A DNA stretch of 64,000 nt from Thalassotalea hakodatensis (GTDB lineage Bacteria > Pseudomonadota > Gammaproteobacteria > Enterobacterales > Alteromonadaceae). Within the stretch, counting starts at the first letter, position 1; each line of letters opens with the position of its first letter. The stretch covers positions 2,512,066 through 2,576,065 of the forward strand of contig NZ_AP027365.1 of the NCBI RefSeq assembly GCF_030295995.1, written 5' to 3'. A model generated the notes under the pieces. That model had not been told where the DNA came from. It made no database searches and saw nothing but the letters and a program-made list of their open reading frames with translations. Positions 4,823 through 56,107 of the stretch are shown here, one piece after another. Position numbers and translations under genes: made by a program.

Positions 4823-6790
4823 ATGAAAAAAACTCTTATTACAATATCGTTAGGGCTCGCCCTTTCCGCATGTGGTGGCGGCGGTTCCTCATCAACAAAA
4901 GCACCAACAACACCTATCACACCACCGGTAAATAGTACATCGGCAGAGGTTGTACAAGCAGAACAAACAGTAGCACTAGGTCAATCCACTGAATTAGTAC
5001 TATTAGCACCTGGTAGCACGATCAGTGATATTCAATGGCAGCAAACGGCAGGTGATACCCTTGAAGTTTATGCTACCACCAGTAAGGTTATTGGCTTTAC
5101 ACCAACGGTTGCGGGTGATTATAGCTTTGAAATCACCTTTAACGAAAATGGTCAACAACAGTCATTAACTAAAGAGTTTACCGTAACAAGTGATGTAGCT
5201 ACATTAACTGCTCGACTTGGTCATGCGGTAGTTGAAGGCAACAGCGTTTCATTAATCTCATACGCACCTCAATTAATTGATTTAACAGAACAAGAGCAAG
5301 CAAGTTTATCGTGGACCAAAACTCAGGGTCCAGATGTAGAATTTACTGCTGACAGCACTGATGGCAAAGTTGCCGTTTTTTTTGATGCTCCTGACGTAAG
5401 CGAAGACACCCTGTTAACTTTCACCGTATCGGGTACGCTTAACGGTGAATCAGTTTCTGATGATATATCAATATTAGTTGAAAGCAGTACTACTGTCCTT
5501 GGGGAAAGAAATTACGTTCCATTTGATGAACGTATCGCTGATGTATTCTTATACAACGAAAATTCACCTGCGGGTCAAAAGCTCATTGATTGTGTGTATT
5601 CAAACAAAGCGACTTACAGCAACTCATGTAACTTTAACCAAACGCCATTAATAGCGCATATTTCTGAAACACCAACTGTTGACGAAATTATGGATCGTGT
5701 GGTGGTTTCACACCAATGGATGGGCGATCAATTTAAAAAGTTCCTTGAACAGTATGATGAACACGATGACTTTAAAAACTTGTTAAGAGCCACCACCGCA
5801 GTTGTGCTTTCTTATGATATTCGCCCGTCATTTTACCATCCATATACTGGCGCCATTTATCTTGACCCAAGTGATTTATGGGAAACACCCACACAACGTG
5901 ACACGATAAACCAAGCCCCTGATTTTCGCGCGGGCTTTGGTAGCGAATTGCAGTTTGAAATTCCATGGCGCTATGTAAAAGATAACGAATATGCTAGTTA
6001 TTACTACCCTCTTCGCTTTAGAAGTACTCGCTCAATGAAAAATGCTGAGTACGATTTTGCTTCATTGCTCTACCATGAACTTGCTCATGCCAATGATTAC
6101 TTCCCATCTACGAGTTGGGATGAATTAAACGAAAGCAATACTACTTTCTTAACGTTAGTAAACCGACTTTTTACTGATCAAGAAATTCAATCTGACGATT
6201 TACAACGAGCATTACCGTTAGACCAGGGTTGGGCGACAGGTGGGCAAAATGAAATGACGAAACTTGGTCAAGTCCGCTTCCAAGATCCAACGTTAATTAC
6301 TGAGCAACAAAAAGCCTACACCATGGAAGATGTCGCCAACCTGTTTAAAACAGAAGGTGCACCGCAATTTTACAGCTATAGTTCAACACGTGAAGATTAT
6401 GCCATTTTATTCGATGGTTTTATGATGAAAGCACGCTACGGTGTAGACCGTGATGTTGCTGTAAGCGACCAAGACTACGATGATATTGTATGGGGCCAAC
6501 GTGGCCGTGAAGGCGAAACACAAATAAAGCCGCGCGTGCAATTTGTTACTGAGCGTATTATTCCTGAATTTGCAACAGAAGCAGCAGATTTTCTTGCAAA
6601 TATGCCAGCAGCAACACCGTTAGATCCATCTAAAAGCTGGTCAGAAAGTATCAATATTTCAGAAGATGCTACCATTAACGCACACTCTTTAGCGGGGCAA
6701 TTAGCCGCTAAAGCTAAACAAATTGATACTAGGTTGATCCCAAAAGATGGAGAAAAGCGCCACGGTAAAGGCCGTAAATTCGTTTACTAA
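4823..6790 (+). CDS. Large lipoprotein with Ig/PKD-like repeats and an HExxH motif
   Basis: A 655-residue predicted lipoprotein of unknown function. The signal peptide ends in lipobox LSAC with the lipidated Cys at residue 17, followed by a Gly/Ser/Thr/Pro-rich linker. Residues about 40-125 and 130-220 look like two beta-sandwich (PKD/Ig-like) domains. The remainder is a globular region with HELAH at residues 418-422. That is the zinc-binding motif of metallopeptidases, and an acidic candidate third ligand (E524/D525, in STRED) lies about 100 residues later. Two Cys in the mid region (DCVY, SCNF) may form a disulfide. It has its own 80-bp leader. The role is inferred; I do not recognise a named family. 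Confidence 0.75.
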   Translation: MKKTLITISLGLALSACGGGGSSSTKAPTTPITPPVNSTSAEVVQAEQTVALGQSTELVLLAPGSTISDIQWQQTAGDTLEVYATTSKVIGFTPTVAGDYSFEITFNENGQQQSLTKEFTVTSDVATLTARLGHAVVEGNSVSLISYAPQLIDLTEQEQASLSWTKTQGPDVEFTADSTDGKVAVFFDAPDVSEDTLLTFTVSGTLNGESVSDDISILVESSTTVLGERNYVPFDERIADVFLYNENSPAGQKLIDCVYSNKATYSNSCNFNQTPLIAHISETPTVDEIMDRVVVSHQWMGDQFKKFLEQYDEHDDFKNLLRATTAVVLSYDIRPSFYHPYTGAIYLDPSDLWETPTQRDTINQAPDFRAGFGSELQFEIPWRYVKDNEYASYYYPLRFRSTRSMKNAEYDFASLLYHELAHANDYFPSTSWDELNESNTTFLTLVNRLFTDQEIQSDDLQRALPLDQGWATGGQNEMTKLGQVRFQDPTLITEQQKAYTMEDVANLFKTEGAPQFYSYSSTREDYAILFDGFMMKARYGVDRDVAVSDQDYDDIVWGQRGREGETQIKPRVQFVTERIIPEFATEAADFLANMPAATPLDPSKSWSESINISEDATINAHSLAGQLAAKAKQIDTRLIPKDGEKRHGKGRKFVY

Positions 6791-6792
6791 GC

Positions 6793-7509
6793 TTAACGGT
6801 TAAGTAACACTTCTTTAATAAAGGGAATAGTGATACGTCGCTGTTCCCTTATTGACGCTTTATCGAGTGTATCTAATGCGGCCAATAAGCTGGTCATATC
6901 ACGGTTTATTCTTGCCAATAAGAATCGCCCTACTTCTTCACTAATATATAAACCACGTTGCTGCCCTCGACATTGTAAGGCTTCAAGCTTTTCATCGTCA
7001 TTGAGTGGTTTGATTTGTAATACATGTCCCCAACTCAACCGAGAAATTAAATCAGGTAAAGTCAAGCCTAATTCATTTACCCCTTTATCACCTGAAATTA
7101 TAATACGTTTATCGTATTCTATAACCCGGTTATACAAATCAAAAACCGCTTGCTGCCATTGTATATCTTGATTAATGCATTGAATATCATCCAAGCAAAT
7201 CACGTCAATGTTTTCTAAACCCTGTAGCATTTCAGGTGATAACTGTTCTTTCTCAGTAAAAGAAAGACAAACCGACGATAAGTTCACACTTTGCGCAAAA
7301 GCACAGCAAGCATGCAATAAATGCGATTTTCCAACATCATTAAGGCCAAACAAATAAGTACTATGGATACTTGAATCAATTAACTGTTCTTGTGCAATAA
7401 AGCTTGAAAGTAATCTCGTTGCAGGCTCATTAATCGATGATCGATAACTCTCAAACGTTTCGTCGTCAGGTAATTGTACCGATAACGAAAGTTGTGGCGT
7501 TGGGCTCAA
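6793..7509 (-). CDS. hda: DnaA inactivator Hda
   Basis: An AAA+ protein, homologous to DnaA domain III, that binds the DNA-loaded sliding clamp and stimulates ATP hydrolysis by DnaA so that replication starts once per cycle. A DnaA-like Walker A region (GLNDVGKSHLL) is followed by the Walker B region VICLDDI, and the C-terminus ITIPFIKEVL matches Hda. The clamp-binding motif QLSLSV is at the N-terminus. No ATG is available; the TTG at 7509 is preferred because GGGAG lies 5 nt upstream and it overlaps the stop of the upstream gene (TTGA). A TTG at 7521 is the alternative. The protein has 238 residues. The order with purM and purN is as in E. coli. Confidence 0.92.
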   Translation of the reverse strand: MSPTPQLSLSVQLPDDETFESYRSSINEPATRLLSSFIAQEQLIDSSIHSTYLFGLNDVGKSHLLHACCAFAQSVNLSSVCLSFTEKEQLSPEMLQGLENIDVICLDDIQCINQDIQWQQAVFDLYNRVIEYDKRIIISGDKGVNELGLTLPDLISRLSWGHVLQIKPLNDDEKLEALQCRGQQRGLYISEEVGRFLLARINRDMTSLLAALDTLDKASIREQRRITIPFIKEVLLNR

Positions 7510-8645
7510 AGCGACTCCCAATAAAACAAAGGGGTACCTTGCAATGAAGTAGGATCTAACGGATCAGCATATCGTTTCAGCGACTTATTTAACTTAAGTG
7601 CGGCCAAAAAGGCTTGCTCTGACCCTAATAATGATAAACTGAAGCGTCGCTCATTACCCTGTGCTTTAACTAGCTTCACCGCTTTAACAGCAGAAAGTTG
7701 CGATAAAAACTGAGTAACCTCAACATACTTAGCCAAGCTATCAACATTAGCGACATCTATCACATAATCTAAATTCATATCTGTAGTGACGGCGTAACGT
7801 TTTGCCACCATATCACTAATCTGACTTAACGTTTCAGCTAAAAGTGTTTGTTTGTTTTGACCATAAACACGCTCACCAAAATGCGGAAGTTGATCAGTAT
7901 TCAACATTGATAAAAAGCTCCAATCTAGCGCCACGGTTGGTTGACAATCATCGCTACAATTGTTGCCAAGTGATAGTTGTTCTTCTGACAACAAACTGTT
8001 ATCAGATAAACGAACCACCACAATTGCCTCGGGTTGATAACGCATTGAAGCGCGCACAATTGGTCGAGTAAATCGCCCCCAAAGTTCATATGTTGTAATT
8101 TGGTTACTATCAAGTAAGTCCATTATGGGCAAGGTAAAAGGCAAACCTCTATTATCTTCAACCGCCTTTACAACATCATTAATCGGGTTATCAATGTCGG
8201 CACTAATGATATTTCGGGTTAACTGTTGTTCTTCAATTACCCATAACACAATTTGTGGTCGTAAACTCCCCCATATTGGCAAGTTAGCCCCAACAAATAA
8301 TTGATTAATTTTACTTTCATCGAAGGTAACAACCAACAAACTTTTATCGTTTTTACGCTCATAACGAAAATTATTCACAAAAGATTGATAACGAGCTCGT
8401 TGCTGTTTAATTGTTGGGTTTTGTAAGATATCCGTTTGACCACTAATTTTAACCAATACGATATCTAATGCCTTTTTAAATGCAGCATTCCTTGCTTGTA
8501 CGCTTTGATTCGATACTTCAACACGGGCTAAATACAGATCTTTTACTTCTACAGCATTAACGTGCTTAACGATTATTGCATTAAACAACATCACTAAAAA
8601 AAACGGTACACAGCGCATAGTAAAGCCAACAATAATTTGTTTCAT
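7506..8645 (-). CDS. DUF2066 domain-containing exported protein
   Basis: A 379-residue protein of the DUF2066 family, of unknown function, commonly located before hda in Vibrio and Shewanella relatives. The start at 8645 (MKQIIVGF) is chosen because the in-frame extension to 8792 would cover the purM promoter region and lacks protein-like sequence. A signal peptide covers about residues 1-31 and ends near VNA; a later ATG at 8618 is also possible. The N-terminal half (SVQARNAAFKKALDIVLVKISG) is the DUF2066 signature. Its stop overlaps the hda start. It is divergent from purM. Confidence 0.82.
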   Translation of the reverse strand: MKQIIVGFTMRCVPFFLVMLFNAIIVKHVNAVEVKDLYLARVEVSNQSVQARNAAFKKALDIVLVKISGQTDILQNPTIKQQRARYQSFVNNFRYERKNDKSLLVVTFDESKINQLFVGANLPIWGSLRPQIVLWVIEEQQLTRNIISADIDNPINDVVKAVEDNRGLPFTLPIMDLLDSNQITTYELWGRFTRPIVRASMRYQPEAIVVVRLSDNSLLSEEQLSLGNNCSDDCQPTVALDWSFLSMLNTDQLPHFGERVYGQNKQTLLAETLSQISDMVAKRYAVTTDMNLDYVIDVANVDSLAKYVEVTQFLSQLSAVKAVKLVKAQGNERRFSLSLLGSEQAFLAALKLNKSLKRYADPLDPTSLQGTPLFYWESL

Positions 8646-8722
8646 AACCATTATGTTACCACAAGAAATTGTCGCTAAAAATCGATAAATATCGCAAAGA
8701 AAAAAATAATTCATTGAAAAGA

Positions 8723-8751
8723 TTCTCAGGGCGCTTTTGCACTGGTAGAAT
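8723..8751 (+). promoter_or_regulatory. Candidate sigma-70 promoter of purM
   Basis: TTCTCA (8723-8728) and TAGAAT (8746-8751) are separated by 17 bp, about 65 bp before the purM start. Each hexamer matches the consensus only partly. I found no convincing PurR operator. Confidence 0.35.
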
Positions 8752-8816
8752 ATGCGCTCTTTATCTCTGCTCGATGCAGCAGGCAATATCAAACGGTTAT
8801 AAATGAGGTTTCTCCC

Positions 8817-9863
8817 GTGAGTGAAGAAAAACAGTCACTAAGTTATAAAGATGCTGGTGTGGATATCGATGCAGGTAATGCGCTAGTTGAAAATATTAAA
8901 GGTGCGGTAAAACGTACCACTCGTCCAGAAGTGATGGGTGGCTTAGGTGGCTTTGGCTCTGTTTGCCAACTTCCTAGCGGTTACAAAGAGCCTGTGCTTG
9001 TAGCAGGTACAGACGGCGTAGGCACTAAACTTCGTTTAGCGATAGACCTAAACAAGCATGACACCGTGGGTATTGATTTAGTGGCAATGTGTGTAAACGA
9101 TTTAATCGTACAAGGCGCGGAGCCATTATTCTTCTTAGATTACTATGCAACAGCCAAACTAGATGTTGACGTTGCATCATCTGTGGTTAGTGGTATTGCA
9201 GAAGGATGTGTTCAATCCAACTGTGCACTAGTTGGCGGTGAAACAGCCGAGATGCCAGGAATGTACCATAAGGGCGATTACGACATTGCCGGTTTCTGTG
9301 TTGGTGTTGCTGAAAAATCACGCTTACTTGATGGCAGTAAAGTTGCCGCTGGTGATCAACTTATTGCTTTAGGCTCCACTGGCGCGCACTCCAATGGTTA
9401 CTCACTCATTCGTAAAGTATTAGAAGTGAATAACACCGATACCAATGAACTATTAGATGGTAAATCAATCGCTGAACGTTTATTAGCACCAACCAAAATT
9501 TATGTGAAATCAGTACTAGAACTTCTAAAAACAGTTGACGTACATGCCTTATCACACATTACTGGCGGTGGCTTTTGGGAGAATATCCCTCGGGTATTAC
9601 CAGATAACGCACAAGCAATAATTAATGGTAATAGCTGGGAATGGCCAGTTATCTTTAACTGGTTACAAGAAAACGGTAATATCACACAACATGAAATGTA
9701 TCGCACGTTTAACTGTGGTGTAGGCATGATCATCGTAGTGCCAGCAGATCAAGTTGATAACAGTTTAGCGATATTACAAGAACAAGGCGAAAATGCTTGG
9801 CATATTGGTGAAATAGCGACACTAAGCCAAGGTGATGAGCAAGTTGTGATCAATCAGGACTAA
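8817..9863 (+). CDS. purM: Phosphoribosylformylglycinamidine cyclo-ligase (AIR synthetase)
   Basis: It converts FGAM to AIR with ATP in purine biosynthesis. At 348 residues it matches the family length. Recognisable blocks are [12 protein letters not shown] at the N-terminus, the GTDGVGTKL phosphate loop (residues about 64-72), [11 protein letters not shown] (about 140-150) and [13 protein letters not shown] (about 244-256). The start is GTG at 8817, with GAGG 8-11 nt upstream. purN follows after 7 bp, the usual purMN operon. It is divergent from the DUF2066 gene. Confidence 0.98.
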
Positions 9864-45668: not shown

Positions 45669-46379
45669 CTAGGCAGAAAGCTCTTTTAATACATCTTCTT
45701 TAAGCTCTAGCCACAGTTTTCCTGATTCAACACCATATTTACGCACGGTTAAAACTGAATCATCAAATTTATTTTCTTTTGCTAATTCAATAAGTTTATC
45801 GTAATAAGCTCTCGAGATTTCTCTACCTTTTGGGTGAGCAAAATATAAACTACCAATACGAGAATATAAGCCTTTAAAGCCATTTAAAATCAATAAATAT
45901 ATCGGATTTCCTGATGCAACCACCAATTCTTTATTGAGTTGGTAATCAAATTCAGCGTACGCTTCACCAGTATCTTCAATATCTTTATACGCCTCAAGTA
46001 GTTCAATGGTTTTTTCAGGATTGTTTCTGATTGCACCACGAACATAGATGGCACTGATGTTTGTGCGAGCTGACATTAAATTATCAACTAAGTCAGGAAC
46101 GCCCTCTTGATCTAATTGTGCAAGTGTTTCAAGCACATTTAAACTAGACGTATCCCAGAAATTATTCACTTTAGTTGGTTTGCCGTGCTTAATGGTTAAC
46201 CAGCCATCGCGAGCTAATCGCTGTAATACTTCTCTAAGTGTCGTTCTGGTTACTCCAATCAATTCAGAAAGCTCTCGTTCTGCAGGTAAAATTGATCCTG
46301 GAGGAAAGCCCCCATTCCAGATGGATTCGACTATATACTGCTCAGCAAACCCTGCCGGACTATGTGCTTTAATAACCAT
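45669..46379 (-). CDS. fadR: Fatty acid metabolism regulator FadR
   Basis: A GntR-family repressor of beta-oxidation genes and activator of unsaturated fatty-acid synthesis genes, released from DNA by long-chain acyl-CoA. It has 236 residues from ATG 46379 ([11 protein letters not shown]), the start that matches E. coli FadR (239); the in-frame extension to 46442 is not family sequence. The DNA-recognition block [20 protein letters not shown] is fully conserved, and [16 protein letters not shown] follows. The acyl-CoA-binding C-terminal domain is present. FadR-like operators lie before fadE and a second dehydrogenase. Confidence 0.97.
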
Positions 46380-46894
46380 AAGGCTCCACGCAACGACGTT
46401 AATTAAAAGTGAACTGATTGTACCAGAAGAATATTTTGGCACAAGAAAATTAGTGACAGTAATAGTTAAGCAACAACGAAAATATAATTTAAAGATTAAA
46501 AATCAATGAATTAAAGATAATTCAGGTAAGCAGCAATCATAAATATTTAAACAGTTTTCTAATAATAATAATGAATCTATTTTACAAACGATACTATTAG
46601 ACATAAACTGAAAACTCGTATAATTTACAATAACTAATATAAACATTATAACGAGAACCTTCGACGAAATAGCGTTAACCTATAGAACATAAATTACTGC
46701 TAACAGATGATACGTATAGACGTTTGCCGATAAAACCGTCAAACGGGTGTAACTAACCCTTTAACAGATTGCCTATCAAAGTAGCATTTTAATTTAAAAA
46801 GCCTGTGCTTTTACGTTGTAATTAAGTTAACGAATTGAATATAAAGATTATTAGAAGTCCGTTAGGTTTTAGTGATAACAAAAAGGTCACGATT
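46380..46894. other. 515-bp region between fadR and the mrp-like operon
   Basis: AT-rich, with no supported gene. It must hold the divergent promoters. A short inverted repeat CGTTTG (46721-46726) / CAAACG (46740-46745), followed by GGGT-N7-ACCC, lies about 150 bp before mrpE and could be a leader structure. Confidence 0.45.
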
Positions 46895-47371
46895 ATGCAT
46901 CTGTTGAAATGGGCAATATTACTTTTCGGTTTCTGGCTTCTGCTCTCTGGGTATTATCAACCATTACTGCTCACCTTTGGTTTAATATCAGTTGCTATTG
47001 TTATTGTTGTGATTAAACGCATGGATAACGTTGACCAACAAGAAAAGTCAGTAAGTACCGGGTATAGGGTTTTGCGTTACTTCTTATGGTTAATTAGCGA
47101 AATCATCCGCTCGAGTTTACAAGTAACTAAGCTTGTTTGGGGCCCCTCTAAAAGTGTATCGCCATCATTATCAAAAATAAATGTCAGCAAAATACCGCAT
47201 AATTCTCGTGTTTTATACGTCAACTCTATTACCTTAACACCAGGAACACTGAGTGTAGATTTAGAAGGTGATGAATTAACAGTCCACGCGCTTCAAAAAA
47301 AATCTATTGATAGACTTAAGAAAGGTGATATGGAAAATAAATTAAAAATTATTTGGGGAGAAAACGAATGA
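46895..47371 (+). CDS. mrpE: Mrp-type cation/proton antiporter subunit E
   Basis: A 158-residue MnhE/MrpE-type subunit (MbhA-like). ATG 46895, with AAAGGT upstream, is preferred; an in-frame TTG at 46835 would add 20 non-hydrophobic residues. Two N-terminal helices (about 5-38) are followed by SEIIRSSLQVTKLVWGP and the cytoplasmic tail with VNSITLTPGTLSVDL, the MnhE signature. It is the first gene of a nine-gene operon and overlaps mrpF as ATGA. Confidence 0.9.
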   Translation: MHLLKWAILLFGFWLLLSGYYQPLLLTFGLISVAIVIVVIKRMDNVDQQEKSVSTGYRVLRYFLWLISEIIRSSLQVTKLVWGPSKSVSPSLSKINVSKIPHNSRVLYVNSITLTPGTLSVDLEGDELTVHALQKKSIDRLKKGDMENKLKIIWGENE

Positions 47372-47634
47372 CACCCGTTCTTGCCGCTGTATGTATTACA
47401 ATTCTAGTGGTCATGGCATTAGCTTTAGCACGAGCATTTAAAGCTGAAACCGTTTATGACCGAATCCTCGGTGTTAATATGTTTGGCACTAAAACTGTTT
47501 TGTTTATTGCTGTTGTTGGTTATCTCATGGGGCGACCTGATTTTTTAGATATCGCCATCGTTTATGCACTCATTAATTTTATTGGTATGGTAGCTGTACT
47601 TCGTTTTTTCGAATATACAGCACCGATCGACTAA
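47368..47634 (+). CDS. mrpF: Mrp-type cation/proton antiporter subunit F
   Basis: A small 88-residue subunit with three helices, MnhF/MrpF-like (MbhB-like). AFKAETVYDRILGVNMFGTKTVLF is the family block. ATG 47368 forms an ATGA overlap with the mrpE stop, which decides the start over the in-frame TTG at 47353. Confidence 0.9.
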   Translation: MTPVLAAVCITILVVMALALARAFKAETVYDRILGVNMFGTKTVLFIAVVGYLMGRPDFLDIAIVYALINFIGMVAVLRFFEYTAPID

Positions 47635-47657
47635 TCATCACCTATAAGGGTTAATTT

Positions 47658-47984
47658 ATGTTATTACTCGACATTATCAGTGGTGTATTACTTATCTTTG
47701 GTGCTTTTTTCGGGCTAAGCGGTGCCGTTGGTCTTTTTAAGTTCCCTGATTTTTTTACGCGCGTTCATGCCGCCAGTGTTACCGATTCGATTGCAGCAAT
47801 ATTGGTACTTGGTGGTCTTATATTACAAACCAATTTAGATCTGAATACTGCTAAGTTATTATTTATTTTGATTTTTCTATTAATCACGAGTCCGACGGCA
47901 TCTCATGTTCTAGCAAAGTCAGCCCGACATGGTGGCTTACTTTCTATGCCAGAAAAAGAACAACAAAAGGAGAATGAGCCTTAA
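47658..47984 (+). CDS. mrpG: Mrp-type cation/proton antiporter subunit G
   Basis: A 108-residue MnhG/MrpG-like (MbhC-like) subunit with three helices. LSGAVGLFKFPDFFTRVHAASVTDS is the family signature, and SPTASHVLAKSA is typical of helix 3. It lies 23 bp after mrpF, and its TAA overlaps the next start (TAATG). Confidence 0.92.
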   Translation: MLLLDIISGVLLIFGAFFGLSGAVGLFKFPDFFTRVHAASVTDSIAAILVLGGLILQTNLDLNTAKLLFILIFLLITSPTASHVLAKSARHGGLLSMPEKEQQKENEP

Positions 47985-48964
47985 TGGAACTATTAATCGA
48001 TTTAGTCTTACTCGCAATGCTAGCATTAACCGCATTGCGCATTATTTTTCTTAAAGATTTATTCGCAGTTGTAATGCTATTTAGTATCTACAGCTTTCTT
48101 TCTGCGTTAATTTTTATCAACCTTGATGCTGTTGATGTTGCTTTTACTGAAGCTGCCGTAGGTGCCGGTATATCAACCGTATTGATGTTAGGCACAATCG
48201 CTATAACCGGGCGTACAGAAACACCTCCTGCCAAATCAAAGCTTTTACCGTTACTCATAGTGGTCGTTACAGGCGCTGCCCTCATATACGGTACGCTCGA
48301 CATGCCTCCTTTTGGTCATGCCGAAAACCCTGTTCATGAACACGTTGCGCCAAGGTACATTGAAGAGTCTCCAAAAGAAATTGGTTTGCCTAATATGGTG
48401 ACTTCAGTGTTAGCAAGCTATCGAGGGTTCGATACGCTAGGAGAAACCGTGGTTGTATTTTCTGCAATGATTGGCGTGTTGTCGCTGTTAAGGCTTAGAA
48501 AACGTGACGCAGATAAAAATCCTGAATCTGGCATTAAAGCGCATAGAGTATTACAAGTGATCGCTAAAATTGTTATTCCTATGATTATTTTGTTTGCGCT
48601 TTATGTGCAGTTTCATGGTGATTTTGGTCCAGGTGGAGGATTCCAAGCAGGTGTAATTGCTGCTGCTGCATTCATTCTTTATGCATTGGTCTTTGGTTTA
48701 TCAAATGTCTTTAAAGTGGTTGGTCCTACGTTTTTACGAATCCTCGCCGTGTTTGGCGTACTTCTGTACGCTGGAGTTGGCGTATACAGTATGGCAATGG
48801 GAGGCAACTTTCTTGATTACAATTATTTAGCTGAAAATCCGTTATCCGGTCAACATTACGGCATTATTCTAATAGAGCTTGGAGTGGGCATAACAGTCTT
48901 CGCCGTTATGCTCAGTATTTTTTATGCCTTTGACAGCCAAATTGAGAGGGCGAATATTCAATGA
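47984..48964 (+). CDS. Fused MbhD-MbhE-MnhB subunit (MrpA C-terminal domains plus MrpB)
   Basis: A 326-residue membrane protein made of three modules. Residues 1-80 are DUF4040/MbhD-like (AVGAGISTVLMLGTIAITGR). Residues about 83-175 are MbhE-like (PNMVTSVLASYRGFDTLGETVVVF). Residues about 185-320 are MnhB-like (YVQFHGDFGPGGGFQAGVIAA). In standard Mrp operons the first two modules are the C-terminal end of MrpA. Here they are fused to MrpB, and the NuoL-like part of MrpA is absent at this place. Confidence 0.85.
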   Translation: MELLIDLVLLAMLALTALRIIFLKDLFAVVMLFSIYSFLSALIFINLDAVDVAFTEAAVGAGISTVLMLGTIAITGRTETPPAKSKLLPLLIVVVTGAALIYGTLDMPPFGHAENPVHEHVAPRYIEESPKEIGLPNMVTSVLASYRGFDTLGETVVVFSAMIGVLSLLRLRKRDADKNPESGIKAHRVLQVIAKIVIPMIILFALYVQFHGDFGPGGGFQAGVIAAAAFILYALVFGLSNVFKVVGPTFLRILAVFGVLLYAGVGVYSMAMGGNFLDYNYLAENPLSGQHYGIILIELGVGITVFAVMLSIFYAFDSQIERANIQ

Positions 48965-49317
48965 GTTTTATTGCAGATTACTACAATTACTGGATCGTCG
49001 TATTCTTGATGATGACAGGGTTTTATATTGTTATTTCAGCGAGCAACCTAGTAAAAAAAGTTGTTGGTTTAAACATCTTTCAAACCTCGGTTTTTATGCT
49101 TTATATATCAATGGGTAAAGTTAAAGGAGGCACGGCACCTATCTTAACCGAAGGGGCTACTCAATATTCTAACCCATTACCGCATGTACTGATTTTAACC
49201 GCTATTGTTGTTGGTGTTGCTACTACAGCCGTTGCTTTGTCTCTAATTGTACGTATTAAAGAAGAATACGGTACGGTTGAAGAAAATGAATTTGAAAACA
49301 AGGATGATGCTATCTGA
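48961..49317 (+). CDS. mrpC: Mrp-type cation/proton antiporter subunit C
   Basis: A 118-residue NuoK-like subunit (MnhC/MbhG-like) with three helices. VVGLNIFQTSVFMLYISMG and NPLPHVLILTAIVVGVATTAVALSL are the family blocks. It overlaps the previous stop as ATGA, and its own stop overlaps the mrpD start. Confidence 0.92.
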   Translation: MSFIADYYNYWIVVFLMMTGFYIVISASNLVKKVVGLNIFQTSVFMLYISMGKVKGGTAPILTEGATQYSNPLPHVLILTAIVVGVATTAVALSLIVRIKEEYGTVEENEFENKDDAI

Positions 49318-50822
49318 TGATTGAACAACACTTAGCCACTCTACCTATTATACTGCCTCTTATTGCAGCACCTATTGCGCTTATTTTAGGGCGTTCAATG
49401 CTTACTTGGGCGTTCGCAACGTTAGTCAGTGCTTTATCTTGTATCGCATCATGGCAACTGTTAATGATAACGCTTTCTGATGGCGCATTAAGTTATGCGC
49501 TGGGTGGTTGGCCACCTCCTTGGGGAATTGAACTTAACGTTGATGTCACTAATGCTTTTGTTTTATTAGCCGTCAGTGCAATGTCAACCTTGGTATTAAT
49601 CTATTCAAAAGACAGTATTGAAAAAGAAATCAATACCTCTAATCATTCACTTTATTATACAGCGCATTTACTCTGTTTAACGGGTTTATCTGGTATGTTA
49701 ATTACCGGTGATGCCTTTAACTTATTCGTCTTTTTAGAAATATCTTCGTTAGCTACTTATACATTAGTGAGTCTAGCGTCTGATCGCCGTTGTTTAACAG
49801 CAACCTTTCGTTATTTAGTCATGGGTACTATAGGAGCTACCTTTATTCTCATTGGGGTTGGCATGCTCTATATGAAAACGGGTACGCTGAACATGGCTGA
49901 TCTCTCAACGAAAATGGCAGCCTTTGAAAGCAATCGTACATTAAATACCGGCCTCGCTTTTATTATGGTAGGTGTAAGTTTAAAGCTTGCACTTTTCCCA
50001 CTACATATGTGGCTACCTGCTGCTTATACCCATGCGCCATCGTCAGTAACCGCATTCCTTGCAAGTACTGCCACCAAAGTTGCCGTTTACGTGATGATAC
50101 GCTTCATATTCTCGGTGTTTGGTGCATCACATGTATTCGAAACAATGAGCATGGAAATCATACTGATGATTTTAGCCATTGTTGCTATTTTTAAATGCTC
50201 ATATATGGCAACTGTGCAAAGTAATGTAAAAACCCTACTTGCCTACAGTAGTGTTGCTCAAATAGGGTATATGGTACTGGGTATTAGTTTAGTGAGTATC
50301 CCTGGTCTTATGTCAGGGTTAATTCATATTTTCAACCATGCATTAATGAAAGGCGCATTATTTATGGCGGTAGGTGCGGTGTTCTATCGTATGGGTTCAG
50401 TTAACATAGAAGCCTTTAAAGGTTTAGGTAAGAAAATGCCACTTACGATGGCAGCCTTTACTATTGCTGGGTTAAGCATTATTGGTGTGCCCCTAACCGC
50501 TGGTTTTGTCAGCAAGTGGTATTTAGTGACTGCAGCGTTAGAACAAGACCTATGGATAGTTGCAGCTTTAGTTTTATTAGGTTCTTTATTAGCCGTCGTT
50601 TATATCGGCCGCGTATTAGAAGCTGCTTACTTTCAGGAACCGCCGGAGTCTCAAGATGCTAACAACATTAAAGAAGTGCCATGGTTAATGCTTATGCCGA
50701 TGTGGATACTGGTCTTAGCAAACATTTATTTTGGAATTAATACCAGTTTAACGGTTGAAGCTGCAACAAGTGCATCGCAATGGCTGTTTCAAGGATATAA
50801 CCCAGCGGGGGTAGCATTATGA
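49317..50822 (+). CDS. mrpD: Antiporter-like subunit, MrpD type
   Basis: A 501-residue NuoL/M/N-like proton-channel subunit with about 14 helices. The key residues of this superfamily are visible: Glu in LFVFLEISSLATY (helix 5) and Lys in GVSLKLALFPLHMWLPAAYTHAP (helix 7), followed by the THAPSSVTAFLAS loop. GLGKKMPLTMAAFTIAGLSIIG is the typical later block. It is the first of three such subunits in this operon. Confidence 0.92.
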   Translation: MIEQHLATLPIILPLIAAPIALILGRSMLTWAFATLVSALSCIASWQLLMITLSDGALSYALGGWPPPWGIELNVDVTNAFVLLAVSAMSTLVLIYSKDSIEKEINTSNHSLYYTAHLLCLTGLSGMLITGDAFNLFVFLEISSLATYTLVSLASDRRCLTATFRYLVMGTIGATFILIGVGMLYMKTGTLNMADLSTKMAAFESNRTLNTGLAFIMVGVSLKLALFPLHMWLPAAYTHAPSSVTAFLASTATKVAVYVMIRFIFSVFGASHVFETMSMEIILMILAIVAIFKCSYMATVQSNVKTLLAYSSVAQIGYMVLGISLVSIPGLMSGLIHIFNHALMKGALFMAVGAVFYRMGSVNIEAFKGLGKKMPLTMAAFTIAGLSIIGVPLTAGFVSKWYLVTAALEQDLWIVAALVLLGSLLAVVYIGRVLEAAYFQEPPESQDANNIKEVPWLMLMPMWILVLANIYFGINTSLTVEAATSASQWLFQGYNPAGVAL

Positions 50823-52327
50823 ACCTCTGGCAAAATATAGACCCATCACTACTGATTAGTTTATCAATATTAGTCCCTTTTATTGGATCTCTACTGGTAA
50901 TTGCAGCAGGTAAATTCCCTAATTTAAGAGAAACAATAACGTTAGTAACGGCGGCGATACTCTTTACGATAGTGCTCGCCATTACCGATTACACATTTCA
51001 AGGTGTGGTATTACAGCAACACGTCATTGATTTGTTTCCGGGGTTAGCGCTCAGCTTCACCGTAGAACCTCTTGGGGTACTATTTGCGCTAGTAGCCAGT
51101 TTCCTTTGGATCGTCACCAGCATTTATGCCATCGGTTATATGCGTGGCCACAACGAAAAGAATCAAACACGATTTTTTTGCTGTTTTGCCTTAGCGATTA
51201 GCTCCGTAATGGCTATCTGTTTTTCTGGAAACTTGTTAACTCTCTTTATTTTCTATGAAGTATTAACATTATCAACTTATCCATTGGTAACACATGCTGG
51301 CAATGATGCAGCCAAACGAGGCGGACGTGTTTATTTAGGTATTTTGTTAAGTACATCAATCTTATTTTTACTTTTTGCCGTTATGGGTACCTATGCTTTA
51401 ACAGGTAATTTAACCTTCCAAGCCGGTGGAGTTTTTGATAACTCGCATAGCAAAATGATAATGGCTATTTTATTAGTATTATTTTGCTACGGTATTGGTA
51501 AAGCAGCAATTATGCCGTTTCATCGCTGGTTACCTGCAGCAATGGTGGCACCTACGCCTGTCAGTGCATTGTTGCATGCTGTTGCAGTAGTCAAAGCTGG
51601 GGTTTTCAGCATCTTAAAAATCGTCATTTATATCTTTGGTTTAGATACCCTTAAAGAGTTAGCGACCACTGATATAATGCTCTATATTGGCGCCGCTACT
51701 ATTTTACTTTCTTCATGTATCGCCATGACTAAAGACAACTTAAAAGCTAGGTTAGCCTACTCTACAGTTAGTCAACTAAGCTATATTGTTGTTGGTGCCC
51801 TATTAGCATCCTCTATAGCGAGTGCGGGTGCTGCACTCCATATTGCAACCCATGCGGTTGGTAAAATTACACTATTCTTCTGTGCTGGCGCCATTATGGT
51901 TGCTAGTCACAAGAAAAACATCTCAGAAATGGTTGGTTTGGGTAAGAAAATGCCGATTACCATGGCCGCGTTTGCTATAGGTGCTATTAGCATTATAGGT
52001 CTACCGCCAATGGCTGGTACTTGGAGTAAATGGTATTTAACCATTGGTGCCCTAGAAACTGATAAATTATTAATTGTAGCTACATTAATGATAAGCTCAT
52101 TACTGAATATAGCGTATTTATTACCTATACCAATCAAAGCATTCTTTAATAAAGCAAGTACTGATAACCAACCTTGGAGTTGGCAGCAAACACAAGAAGC
52201 ACCTTTACCTATGTTAATCGCTATTTCGGTAACATCTTTAGGTTGTATTGTACTATTTTTCTATCCACAGCCCTTGATTGATTTAATCAATCTTATTCCG
52301 GGCGTTGCTACTAATGGAGAAGGTTAA
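50819..52327 (+). CDS. Second antiporter-like subunit (MrpD/NuoM paralog)
   Basis: A 502-residue protein of the same superfamily, overlapping the first by 4 nt (ATGA). Glu in LFIFYEVLTLSTYPLV and Lys in CYGIGKAAIMPFHRWLPAAMVAPTPVSA are retained, so it is probably a working channel. The loop VAPTPVSALLHAVAVVKAG resembles NuoL/NuoM and MrpA more than MrpD. Its assignment within the superfamily needs a tree. Confidence 0.9.
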   Translation: MNLWQNIDPSLLISLSILVPFIGSLLVIAAGKFPNLRETITLVTAAILFTIVLAITDYTFQGVVLQQHVIDLFPGLALSFTVEPLGVLFALVASFLWIVTSIYAIGYMRGHNEKNQTRFFCCFALAISSVMAICFSGNLLTLFIFYEVLTLSTYPLVTHAGNDAAKRGGRVYLGILLSTSILFLLFAVMGTYALTGNLTFQAGGVFDNSHSKMIMAILLVLFCYGIGKAAIMPFHRWLPAAMVAPTPVSALLHAVAVVKAGVFSILKIVIYIFGLDTLKELATTDIMLYIGAATILLSSCIAMTKDNLKARLAYSTVSQLSYIVVGALLASSIASAGAALHIATHAVGKITLFFCAGAIMVASHKKNISEMVGLGKKMPITMAAFAIGAISIIGLPPMAGTWSKWYLTIGALETDKLLIVATLMISSLLNIAYLLPIPIKAFFNKASTDNQPWSWQQTQEAPLPMLIAISVTSLGCIVLFFYPQPLIDLINLIPGVATNGEG

Positions 52328-52328
52328 G

Positions 52329-52586
52329 ATGGCTGAGCAAAACCATGAACAAAGTGGCTTCTTCGATAAGCCTGAAAACATTCGTAAAATGTTAAGAGTT
52401 TTTTATATCATTTGCGCTTTACTCGTGATTGTAGACCTTGTTGTTAACCGCCATATTTATCATGACTGGGAAAACATTCCTGCATTTTATGCTCTCTATG
52501 GTTTTGTTGGCTGTGTCGTTTTGGTATTAATCGCCACCGAAATGAGAAAGTTTTTAATGCGTAAGGAAGATTATTACGATGAATAG
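52329..52586 (+). CDS. Small two-helix protein of the antiporter operon
   Basis: An 85-residue protein that I do not recognise. ATG 52329, 2 bp after the previous stop, is chosen. The charged N-terminus (MAEQNHEQSGFFDKPENIRK) is followed by two helices (about residues 26-43 and 56-74) and a charged C-terminus (MRKFLMRKEDYYDE). It overlaps the next gene by 8 nt. Its position between two antiporter-like subunits suggests an accessory membrane subunit. Confidence 0.75.
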   Translation: MAEQNHEQSGFFDKPENIRKMLRVFYIICALLVIVDLVVNRHIYHDWENIPAFYALYGFVGCVVLVLIATEMRKFLMRKEDYYDE

Positions 52587-54300
52587 CTTAATACTGCTTC
52601 CGCCCTTTTTACCGCTATTATTCGGGGCGCTAGCCGCTTTATTTTTACGTGGTTGGTTACGAAACACTGTGATGTTAATCGTACCCATTATTGGTGCGTT
52701 AAATATCTATGGTCTAGATACTGGTGTATTTTGGTCATTAGAATTTATGGGCTATACCTTAGAACCCGTAAAGGTCGATAAGCTCAGTTTAATGTTTGGC
52801 TATCTTTTTCATATTGCTTCGTTTATCGCTATTGTTTACGCGATACATATTAAAGATACCCTTCAACATGTTGCAGCATTAGCCTATGCAGCAAGTGCTG
52901 TTGGTGCTGTATTTGCTGGTGACTTATTAACCCTGTTTGTATTTTGGGAGTTACTCGCACTTACTTCAGTATTTTTAATTTGGGCCAGAAGAACTGATAA
53001 AGCGTACGCTTCGGGTCTACGATATTTAATTATTCAAGTACTCTCAGGTGTTATGTTGCTTGCAGGTCTACTTATCTACGCTCAAGTCAATGATAGTTTA
53101 TTGTTTACTGAGATTGGTTTAGAACATCAAGGTATTGCACAAATTGGTGCTTGGTTAATCTTTTTAGCCTTCGGTATTAAATGTGCTTTTCCTTTTGTAC
53201 ACAATTGGTTAACTGATGCCTACCCTGAAGCTACGCCTACAGGAACAATATTTCTAGCTTCTTTTACGACCAAAGTAGCAGTCTATGCTTTTGCTCGTGG
53301 CTACCCTGGCACTGAATTACTTGTTTGGATTGGTGTCACTATGGCATGTTTTCCAATTTTCTTTGCTGTTATAGAAAATGATCTAAGGCGCGTACTTGCG
53401 TACAGTTTAATTAACCAAATCGGCTTTATGATAGTCGGTATAGGTATTGGTACAGCGGTCGCGTTAAACGGTGCTGTTGCACATGCTTTCAATGACGTTA
53501 TCTTTAAAGGTTTGTTAATGATGACGATGGGGGCTGTGTTACATATGACAGGGAAAATAAATGGCTCCGAATTAGGAGGCTTATACAAAAGCATGCCTAA
53601 AACGACCATTCTCTGTATTGTCGGCGCTGCATCTATTTCAGCCTTCCCGCTCTTTAGTGGCTTTGTCTCTAAATCGATGATTATGAGTGCGGCAGTTGCT
53701 GAAGGCTACGATGTCGTTTGGCTATTATTATTGTTTGCTGCAGCAGGTGTATTCCATCATGCAGGGATCAAAATTCCTTACTTCGCATTCTTTGCTCATG
53801 ATTCTGGCATCAGAACCACAGAGCCACCTCGTAATATGCTAATTGCCATGACTTTAGCAGCTGTAGCTTGTGTGGTTATTGGTTCATTCCCTGCACAAAC
53901 GGTTTATGCATTGCTGCCATGGGAAGCAAACTACCAACCGTATGACTTAACGCATGTATTAACGCAATTACAATTGTTATTCTTCTCTGCACTTGCTTTC
54001 GTATGGCTTAACCAACGAAACATGTATCCACCTGAGTTGCCCTCTACAAACTTAGATGCGGATTGGTTTTATCGTAAATTGGCACCGAATGTAATAAAAC
54101 GGGTTGCCAGTGCTGTCTATCACAGCTATCAACGTGCTGAACTTGCTGTGGTAATGTCAATTAAGCATATAGTACAGCGTTCATACGATGCAGATAAAAA
54201 TGAACCTAGAGGCTACTTTGCTCGATTTTGGCTTACTGATACGATGGTAGTTTGGGTGGCAATTTTACTTGTTGCCTATTTATTGTTGTATTACATCTAG
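52579..54300 (+). CDS. Third antiporter-like subunit (Na+/H+ antiporter subunit D-like)
   Basis: A 573-residue NuoL/M/N-like subunit, longer than the other two. Glu in LFVFWELLALTSVFLIWA and Lys in FGIKCAFPFVHNWLTDAYPEATPTG are present, plus Lys in FTTKVAVYAFARG. The C-terminus has an extra soluble part (about 480-550: DADWFYRKLAPNVIKRVAS) and a last helix. This recalls the C-terminal extension of NuoL/MrpA-type subunits. A terminator follows the operon. Confidence 0.88.
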   Translation: MNSLILLPPFLPLLFGALAALFLRGWLRNTVMLIVPIIGALNIYGLDTGVFWSLEFMGYTLEPVKVDKLSLMFGYLFHIASFIAIVYAIHIKDTLQHVAALAYAASAVGAVFAGDLLTLFVFWELLALTSVFLIWARRTDKAYASGLRYLIIQVLSGVMLLAGLLIYAQVNDSLLFTEIGLEHQGIAQIGAWLIFLAFGIKCAFPFVHNWLTDAYPEATPTGTIFLASFTTKVAVYAFARGYPGTELLVWIGVTMACFPIFFAVIENDLRRVLAYSLINQIGFMIVGIGIGTAVALNGAVAHAFNDVIFKGLLMMTMGAVLHMTGKINGSELGGLYKSMPKTTILCIVGAASISAFPLFSGFVSKSMIMSAAVAEGYDVVWLLLLFAAAGVFHHAGIKIPYFAFFAHDSGIRTTEPPRNMLIAMTLAAVACVVIGSFPAQTVYALLPWEANYQPYDLTHVLTQLQLLFFSALAFVWLNQRNMYPPELPSTNLDADWFYRKLAPNVIKRVASAVYHSYQRAELAVVMSIKHIVQRSYDADKNEPRGYFARFWLTDTMVVWVAILLVAYLLLYYI

Positions 54301-54332
54301 CGTATTAAAGCGATTTAATACCAATTCATTTG

Positions 54333-54367
54333 ATAAAGCTCCTACATAATGGGAGCTTTATTTTTTT
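54333..54367 (+). terminator. Intrinsic terminator of the mrp-like operon
   Basis: A 10-bp stem ATAAAGCTCC / GGAGCTTTAT with a 9-nt loop is followed by a T6 run, 32 bp after the last stop. Confidence 0.9.
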
Positions 54368-54517
54368 AAGCCTATAGTGACGTCGTTCACTCTATAAAAG
54401 AGTAGACTTGCCTACCAATAGAATTAATTTAGATGAAAATAGTCTTTGCAACCACAATATGACCCTGTTATAAATCTGCCGATTTTTTAGCTAACCTAGA
54501 AAAAAGGCTCTTCCGAG

Positions 54518-56107
54518 ATGAACCAATCTGCCATTAGTGCATTTTACCAAAACTTTTTAGGGAACTCCCCTAGATGGTACAAACAAGCCATTATTGCTTG
54601 CCTCATTATTAATCCAATATTGTTCCAAATTAGTCCTTACCTTGCTGGTTGGGCACTCGTACTTGAATTTATCTTCACGCTTGCAATGGCACTTAAATGT
54701 TACCCATTACAACCGGGTGGCTTACTGGCAATTGAAGCCGTTGTTATTGGCATGACAAGCCCTGAACAAGTCATGCATGAAATCCAAGCCAACATTGAAG
54801 TATTACTGCTATTGATTTTTATGGTGGCAGGCATCTATTTCATGAAGAATTTATTGCTATTTCTATTCGCTAAAATTGTTACTAAGATTCGTTCTAAAAC
54901 AATCGTTTCCTTATTGTTTTGTGTAAGTAGTGCTTTCTTATCAGCATTTTTAGATGCGTTAACGGTAATTGCCGTTATTATTGCAGTAGCGGTTGGTTTT
55001 TACGCGGTTTATCACAAAGTCGCTTCTGGAAAAGATAATCACCAACATGATCATGATCATACTTGTGACCAAGGTGTTCAAGAGCCCTCCCGTCTTGATT
55101 TAGACAATTTTCGCGCATATTTACGAAATTTAATGATGCATGCAGGTGTTGGTACAGCTCTTGGCGGCGTCTGCACCATTGTTGGTGAACCACAAAACTT
55201 AATTATTGGTCAACAAGCAGGATGGGATTTCATTGAATTTTTCATTCGAATGTCTCCGGTAACAATTCCTGTTTTTATCTCAGGTATCATTACCTGCATT
55301 TTGCTTGAAAAGCTAAAGTGGTTTGGTTATGGCTCAACGTTACCTGAAAGTGTACGAAATATCTTAATCGATTATGAAAAAACTCAGTCTAAAAAACGCA
55401 CCAAGAAAGATAAAGTAAAATTAATCATGCAGGGAGTTGTCGGTATTTGGCTAATTGTTGGTTTAGCCTTGCACCTTGCTGCTGTGGGTTTAATTGGATT
55501 AACCGTTATTATTTTTGCCACTTCTTTTACCGGGATCACTGAAGAACATCAAATTGGCCATGCTTTTGAAGAAGCACTCCCCTTCACCGCCCTTTTAGCC
55601 GTATTTTTTGCCATTGTCGCTGTTATTATAGATCAACAGCTCTTTACACCGGTTATCACTTGGGTATTAACGTTCGAAGGTAATATGCAATTAGTGATGT
55701 TCTATTTAGCAAATGGCTTTTTATCCATGGTCAGTGATAACGTTTTTGTTGGAACTGTTTACATTACTGAAGTACAAAAAGCGCTATCAGCTGGTGTGAT
55801 TACGCGTGATCAATTTGATTTATTAGCGGTGGCAATTAATACCGGTACAAACTTACCTAGTGTTGCGACCCCTAATGGACAAGCAGCTTTTTTATTCTTA
55901 CTTACTTCTGCAATAGCGCCACTTATTAGGTTGTCTTACGGCCGTATGGTAATCATGGCATTTCCATACACAATTGTGCTGACCATTGTTGGTTTATTAG
56001 CCATATCAAGTGGTTTATTAGAAGGAAAAACTCAAGAATTTTATGATGCAGGCTTAATATCACATCATGTTGCAGATGACAGTAAAGCAACTTCAAACGC
56101 ACATTAA
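54518..56107 (+). CDS. nhaB: Na+/H+ antiporter NhaB
   Basis: An inner-membrane electrogenic Na+/H+ antiporter with 529 residues. The N-terminus ([18 protein letters not shown]), [22 protein letters not shown] and [27 protein letters not shown] match E. coli NhaB. A histidine-rich stretch [14 protein letters not shown] (residues about 173-186) sits in the loop after that block; I do not recall it in E. coli NhaB. nhaB-dsbB order is as in E. coli, with fadR-nhaB separated here by the mrp-like operon. Confidence 0.96.

Follow-up and report, generated by a model that had tools for sequence, protein, structure and literature searches.

The window analysed here, a stretch of 64,000 nucleotides of the Thalassotalea hakodatensis genome (Gammaproteobacteria; contig NZ_AP027365.1, positions 2,512,066 to 2,576,065), contains an operon of nine genes related to the Mrp cation/proton antiporters. 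Its genes are arranged in the order E, F, G, an MbhD-MbhE-MnhB fusion, C, and three channel subunits, D1, D2 and D3, with a protein of 85 amino acids, here called s, between the last two (Table 1). Neighbouring frames overlap or touch except for gaps of 23 bases before G and 1 base before s. The open reading frames and Pfam matches agree with this order, which had been read from the letters alone in an earlier note (the original prediction), and with its E-F-G-D/E-B-C-D core, as in the Mbh/Mrp module. Judged by gene content, the operon is a group 3 Mrp (cation/proton antiporter-3, CPA3) system in the sense of PMC8415708, which in its passages on classification describes group 3 as a class without mrpA, in which mrpD may be present in several copies. 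Here no mrpA is present, and the B, C, D, E, F and G domains lie within one operon. A different definition of group 3, by irregular gene order with every subunit present, is given in a passage of PMC5703873.

Table 1. Genes of the nine-gene operon (window positions; lengths in amino acids, aa)
Product	Position	Strand	Basis
MrpE, 158 aa	46895-47371	+	Pfam MNHE, E = 1.6e-26; alignable with MbsA, Bp MrpE and Af MrpE
MrpF, 88 aa	47368-47634	+	Pfam MrpF_PhaF over cut-off; PDB alignment
MrpG, 108 aa	47658-47984	+	Pfam PhaG_MnhG_YufB, E = 8e-25; TIGR01300 over cut-off
MbhD-MbhE-MnhB fusion, 326 aa	47984-48964	+	Pfam MbhD, MbhE and MnhB; NCBIfam PRK12507, 420 bits (cut-off 272)
MrpC, 118 aa, NuoK-like	48961-49317	+	Pfam Oxidored_q2; NCBIfam subunit C over cut-off
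D1, 501 aa, MrpD/MbhH-type channel subunit	49317-50822	+	Proton_antipo_M; best PDB matches MbsH, MbhH and MrpD
D2, 502 aa, channel subunit	50819-52327	+	Proton_antipo_M; five NuoL/MrpA-only residues; own clade
s, 85 aa, two predicted helices	52329-52586	+	No named family
D3, 573 aa, channel subunit	52579-54300	+	Proton_antipo_M; NCBIfam PRK12668, 713 bits (cut-off 564)

MrpE carries an LTPGT motif at T115, and in the PDB alignment D31-R32 of MrpF are the counterpart of the conserved Asp-Arg of MrpF proteins; the Pfam match of MrpF was scored on a longer frame that starts upstream, at 47353. The fusion is collinear with the C-terminal third of group 2 MrpA, aligning to residues 605-906 of MrpA in 7d3u, and its E56 and E154 fall within the two conserved Glu motifs. 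Since the fusion and D3 both exceed NCBIfam cut-offs, these parts of the operon are already familiar to annotators. An odd base composition was considered and rejected, the fraction of guanine plus cytosine being 0.39-0.40 in the operon and 0.35-0.40 in its surroundings.

All three channel subunits keep the Glu of helix 5 and the Lys of helix 7 (K201 in D3), as had been noticed at the outset. In the phylogeny that the original prediction had proposed, they fall into separate clades, each with a haloarchaeal member. D1 (support 100/98) is placed weakly beside MrpD (88/79), D2 forms a clade of its own (100/99), and D3 (100/100) is sister to MbsH', a subunit of the Pyrococcus membrane-bound sulfane reductase (MBS). 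A recent duplication of mrpD was rejected on this topology. Five residues confined to NuoL and MrpA (E. coli NuoL Y106, M243, H254, V259 and T312) are matched in the alignment in 17/17 rows of D2, 0/17 of D1 and 0/19 of D3. D2 has no C-terminal extension; D3 has a lateral helix but lacks the five residues. In the AlphaFold2 model of D3, with a mean predicted local distance difference test score (pLDDT) of 88, transmembrane helix 15 (TM15) is followed by a lateral helix of 47 residues (494-540) and a last helix (552-572). Because D2 holds the NuoL/MrpA channel residues and D3 the NuoL-type lateral helix, we infer that D2, s and D3 jointly take the place of the NuoL half of MrpA and that D3 acts as the clamp, an interpretation based on residues, helix lengths and the exchange in complex I described below. 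The original prediction of an antiporter with three channels and no fused MrpA is thus retained as far as gene content goes, but not its suggestion that either D2 or D3 singly stands in for MrpA. This division of features, with an MrpD-like D1 beside them, is new.

The operon is not a rarity: this class of operon is widespread, group 3 Mrp systems have been described (PMC8415708), and a like layout has been published for 'Ca. Nitrospira alkalitolerans' (in the part of PMC7784846 on its Mrp genes). PRK12668, the D3 family, exceeds its cut-off in 29 of 143 genomes drawn evenly from the bacterial class and in none of 14 control genomes. In a scan of a second genome collection with the D3 alignment, 581 stretches carried a relative at E 0.001; the collection counts are based on the best 80 of them. 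The titles of the 80 come from Gamma-, Alpha- and Betaproteobacteria, Gemmatimonadota, Planctomycetota, Verrucomicrobiota and others; among the matches listed, the nearest named relatives include Amphritea and Pontibacterium. In the co-occurrence survey, which had also been proposed, all nine genes were found on one strand, our definition of complete, in 24 of the 29 class loci and 61 of the 80 collection loci, so the layout is not a product of chance. Loci were ordered by frame start, and over-long frames may therefore swap neighbours. The five incomplete class loci (L and G numbers denote loci and genomes) are two split operons (L055, L061), one at a contig end (L060), one with two s-D3 pairs (L043) and one with another layout under the cut-off (L066); in the other 19 collection loci the sequence before D3 is no more than 5.1 kb long, too short for the operon. 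A fusion frame of at least 290 aa is present in 6/24 (class) and 30/61 (collection) complete operons, fewer than half of the relatives, and these are upper bounds, as over-long frames (for example in L098) also pass. Motif counts were loose pattern matches (for example, MbhE TLGE in 57/88) and were not used as evidence. Naturally stripped complexes were considered for G119 and G096 and rejected, as each of the two genomes has an MnhB gene at another site.

The small protein s has predicted helices at residues 15-41 and 55-76 (model mean pLDDT 68) and a nearly invariant YY near its C-terminus. Neither the window protein nor any of the 23 s members has a Pfam or NCBIfam match better than E 0.001; the first Pfam scan took s as a frame of 93 aa, and the later Pfam and NCBIfam scans used the 85-aa frame. 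No PDB match was better than 0.17, and the low-confidence model had no Foldseek match, which does not in itself show a new fold. Searches of open-licence PMC papers found no description of s, and the single annotated record inspected labels it 'hypothetical protein'. At loci showing both D2 and D3, s is found in 27 of 28 class loci and 78 of 78 collection loci; its profile was built from the window and the class loci, and the two genome sets may have species in common. The sole miss, L066 (G140), is an Mrp cluster with a large subunit of 766 aa, a D3-like protein of 330 bits, under the cut-off, and no s; the same contig has three more unclassified channel genes about 5 kb before this cluster. 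Across the 143 class genomes s occurs in 30, namely the 29 with D3 over the cut-off and G038, where the operon runs off the contig end. The profile was drawn partly from these genomes, and the informative part of this result is the absence of s from the other 113. It was also found in 11 of a set of 30 relatives, near and more remote, that includes the window's own genome; one of the 11, G157, gave a weak match with stops. A conserved small protein unnamed in Pfam and NCBIfam is new, and s and the common D2-s-D3 set merit further work.

The tail of D3 offers a gauge of channel number. According to the comparison of lateral helices in PMC7684303, helix length tracks the number of channel subunits, being shorter with one channel, in the membrane-bound hydrogenase (MBH), and longer with three, in complex I, than with two, in MBS and likewise in Mrp; a further 26 residues, as an insertion, accompany one more channel in five-channel complex I, as PMC9040806 describes that enzyme. 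The number of residues past a conserved Tyr has a median of 73 in D3 of Mrp context (5-95% range 68-79, n=125, a set to which the split operons L055 and L061 and the lone D2-s-D3 of L185 belong), and is 68 and 66 in NuoL and 98 in 6/6 D3 of rhizobial nuo clusters; the two D3 of G116 appear twice in these tail data. From this Tyr to the last helix the span is 57 residues in the window D3, 49 and 48 in NuoL, 79 in one complex I D3 and 26-27 in MrpA (the two of six with the anchor); for MrpA, the Tyr anchors were combined with helix starts from hydropathy, since the automatic pick of the last helix chose a later one. Five of six MrpA have a TM15-TM16 gap of 46-48 residues in hydropathy plots (the sixth has no TM15 call); the gap is 80 and 85 in two NuoL, the latter being the genome's own NuoL, where the value skips a hydrophobic stretch inside the tail, and 79 in the window D3. 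This series fits three channels in the window complex. Several values do not follow the rule and weigh against it: in HyfB the span is 27 and the gap 106, HycC combines one channel with a gap of 64, and the D3 proteins of two Verrucomicrobiota loci in Mrp context (L131, L140) have tails of 99 and 101 residues past the Tyr, a complex I-like length.

The tail also bears on the alternative that D2 and D3 are interchangeable forms, each complex having two channels (D1 with D2 or D1 with D3) as in the two-channel Bacillus Mrp. Two channel subunits are described for an Mrp structure in PMC7419157, and D2 and D3 each have what the other lacks of the NuoL/MrpA features. We regard this as decidedly unlikely, because the D3 tail is longer than that of MrpA, because D2, s and D3 stand together in 78/78 and 27/28 loci with frames that overlap or nearly touch, and because D2 and D3 jointly occupy the place of NuoL in a rhizobial operon.

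The rhizobial operon is found on plasmids of Sinorhizobium and Pararhizobium, where the order is nuoJ-nuoK-D2-s-D3-nuoM-nuoN-nuoA, so that the same set as in the window lies at the expected nuoL site. S. medicae pSymB, taken by itself, encodes four channel proteins, all inside the nuo cluster and none a NuoL. In rhizobial green complex I, NuoL is replaced by two MrpD-like subunits, according to the descriptions of this enzyme in PMC9040806 and PMC7415380, and the nuo clusters with D2-s-D3 fit green complex I as described in the former. Rhizobial D2 and D3 join the window clades in a quick tree (Shimodaira-Hasegawa-like approximate likelihood ratio test, SH-aLRT: D2 clade 100, D3 clade 99); the expectation that D2 and D3 would lie outside the clade of any described enzyme is therefore abandoned. 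Green complex I differs in being a redox enzyme, in a D3 tail about 25 residues longer and in the replacement of the helix-7 Lys by Asn in 6/6 D3. Asn is also found in both D3 of G116 and in the haloarchaeal D3; in Mrp context Lys is present in 115/125 and Asn in 10/125. None of the cation-part genes, E, F, G or MnhB, turned up in the rhizobial nuo clusters. Among 397 genomes of the phylum, s occurs in 25 genomes at 27 loci: four nuo clusters, all of one genus, 22 Mrp loci including the window and the split G119 operon, and the lone L185 (G240, 6251-9813), which lies beside flagellar/chemotaxis-like frames (by eye) and whose genome carries two Mrp-type copies. The nuo cluster of G116 contains D2, NuoM and a NuoN-like fragment of 322 aa, with two lone s-D3 pairs elsewhere (L043, L174); NuoL and MnhB were looked for in this genome and neither was found. 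The arrangement resembles the layout of green complex I in split form.

We give roughly even chances to the proposal that D2-s-D3 is a portable end-module, taking over from the NuoL unit in both group 3 Mrp and green complex I. The protein s would then be a genuine but overlooked subunit of the two complexes, required for seating D3, and on the move to complex I D3 would gain about 25 lateral-helix residues, about one channel width, lose the helix-7 Lys and perhaps turn from a proton channel into a clamp.

The T. hakodatensis genome (4.28 Mb, single contig, 100% complete) encodes six PF00361 (Proton_antipo_M) proteins, namely D1, D2, D3 and three at 1.08 Mb, about 1.5 Mb from the operon, whose best matches are E. 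coli NuoL, NuoM and NuoN. The sole MbhD domain found genome-wide is that of the 326-aa fusion, which has no NuoL half. A separate mrpA, which would have undone the original prediction, was thus not found in the whole genome by the PF00361 scan and MbhD search, and the claim that the NuoL-like half of MrpA is absent, its C-terminal domains being fused to MnhB, holds. Likewise, the open frames between 42 and 60 kb, read by eye, showed no redox or hydrogenase-like module and no nuoA-K, hydrogenases not having been searched for in the rest of the genome; the original prediction, too, had noted no hydrogenase or NADH module next to the operon. We therefore consider it highly improbable that these genes encode the membrane arm of a redox enzyme with its electron-transfer part at another locus, even though Mbh and Mbs contain group 3 modules (PMC8415708) and D2-s-D3 belong to the rhizobial nuo cluster: the nuo cluster of this genome has its own NuoL, NuoM and NuoN, and the cation part is missing from the rhizobial clusters.

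The operon is flanked upstream by a FadR-like gene on the opposite strand (by eye) and downstream by NhaB, the one flanking gene checked against Pfam, and a DsbB-like gene (by eye). It lies between fadR and nhaB (window 45669-56107), with the same placement in G145 of the same genus (loci compared: L165, L166, L167, L169 and L170). The two genes are near each other without the operon in G144 (same genus), where they are about 1.8 kb apart with another frame in between, and in G139, G156 and G157; in G156 s is located elsewhere. The operon looks like an insertion at the fadR/nhaB junction.

Judging from these sequence features, the nine genes probably encode one group 3 Mrp membrane complex with three proton channels in a row, which would exchange protons for a cation, most likely Na+. 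E, F, G, the fusion and C would form the cation-moving part and the joint. With a presumed stoichiometry of three channels per complex, D1 would lie beside C and D3 at the far end, its long amphipathic helix running back over the row as a clamp, like the NuoL helix in complex I; s would sit with D3, probably at the D2-D3 contact. Protons moving inward through the channels would drive the cation out through the E/F/G/B part, and the exchange could run in reverse as well. Compared with two channels, three could make the exchange more electrogenic and allow Na+ extrusion when the proton-motive force is lower or external Na+ is higher. Many of the named relatives belong to marine genera. This, and the listing of Mrp without MrpA as enriched in a saline Gemmatimonadota order (in the part of PMC9426454 on that order), speak mildly for Na+; that K+, Ca2+ or another cation is coupled instead, K+ or Ca2+ being moved by some Mrp systems (as noted in PMC5703873), seems unlikely.

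How two, three or four channel subunits couple in complex I and its relatives is the question to which these results pertain. The class has the look of a naturally occurring antiporter with three channels and no redox arm, in which the MrpA features are spread over separate, deletable genes, and D3 occurs in both three-channel and four-channel settings.

Among known systems, groups 1 and 2 of Mrp (MrpA-G, MrpA'CDEFG) are marked by an MrpA in which the NuoL-like half is fused to MbhD/E domains; in the window their MbhD, MbhE and MnhB domains, from MrpA and MrpB, are all within the fusion, whereas D2, s and D3 are separate genes. The order of Mbh/Mbs is present without a hydrogenase-like module, and nuoA-K, which accompany the channel genes in complex I, standard or green, do not lie beside those of the window. 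Pyrococcus MBS has two channels and a redox arm, unlike the window operon; MbsH' (6u8y chain X; 95/94 as sister of D3) and D3 share the lateral helix. The stand-alone group 3 Mrp of Pyrococcus furiosus (mrpEFGBB'CD), as outlined in PMC8415708, has the common E-F-G-B-B'-C-D order, no mrpA and a B that resembles an MbhD-MbhE fusion; it has one channel subunit, in contrast to three and s in the window, where B and B' are fused. In 'Ca. Nitrospira alkalitolerans' the group 3 Mrp, likened here by its published description, has two NuoM/NuoL-like genes after mrpD and nhaB in the same region; the small protein is not mentioned in that description (PMC7784846). The Mrp operon on Haloterrigena turkmenica pHTUR04 reads E, F, G, DUF4040, MnhB, C, D1, D2, D3, and each D falls in the corresponding clade of the window. 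It differs in that DUF4040 and MnhB are separate genes, s was not found in this one haloarchaeal operon inspected, and D3 lacks the helix-7 Lys.
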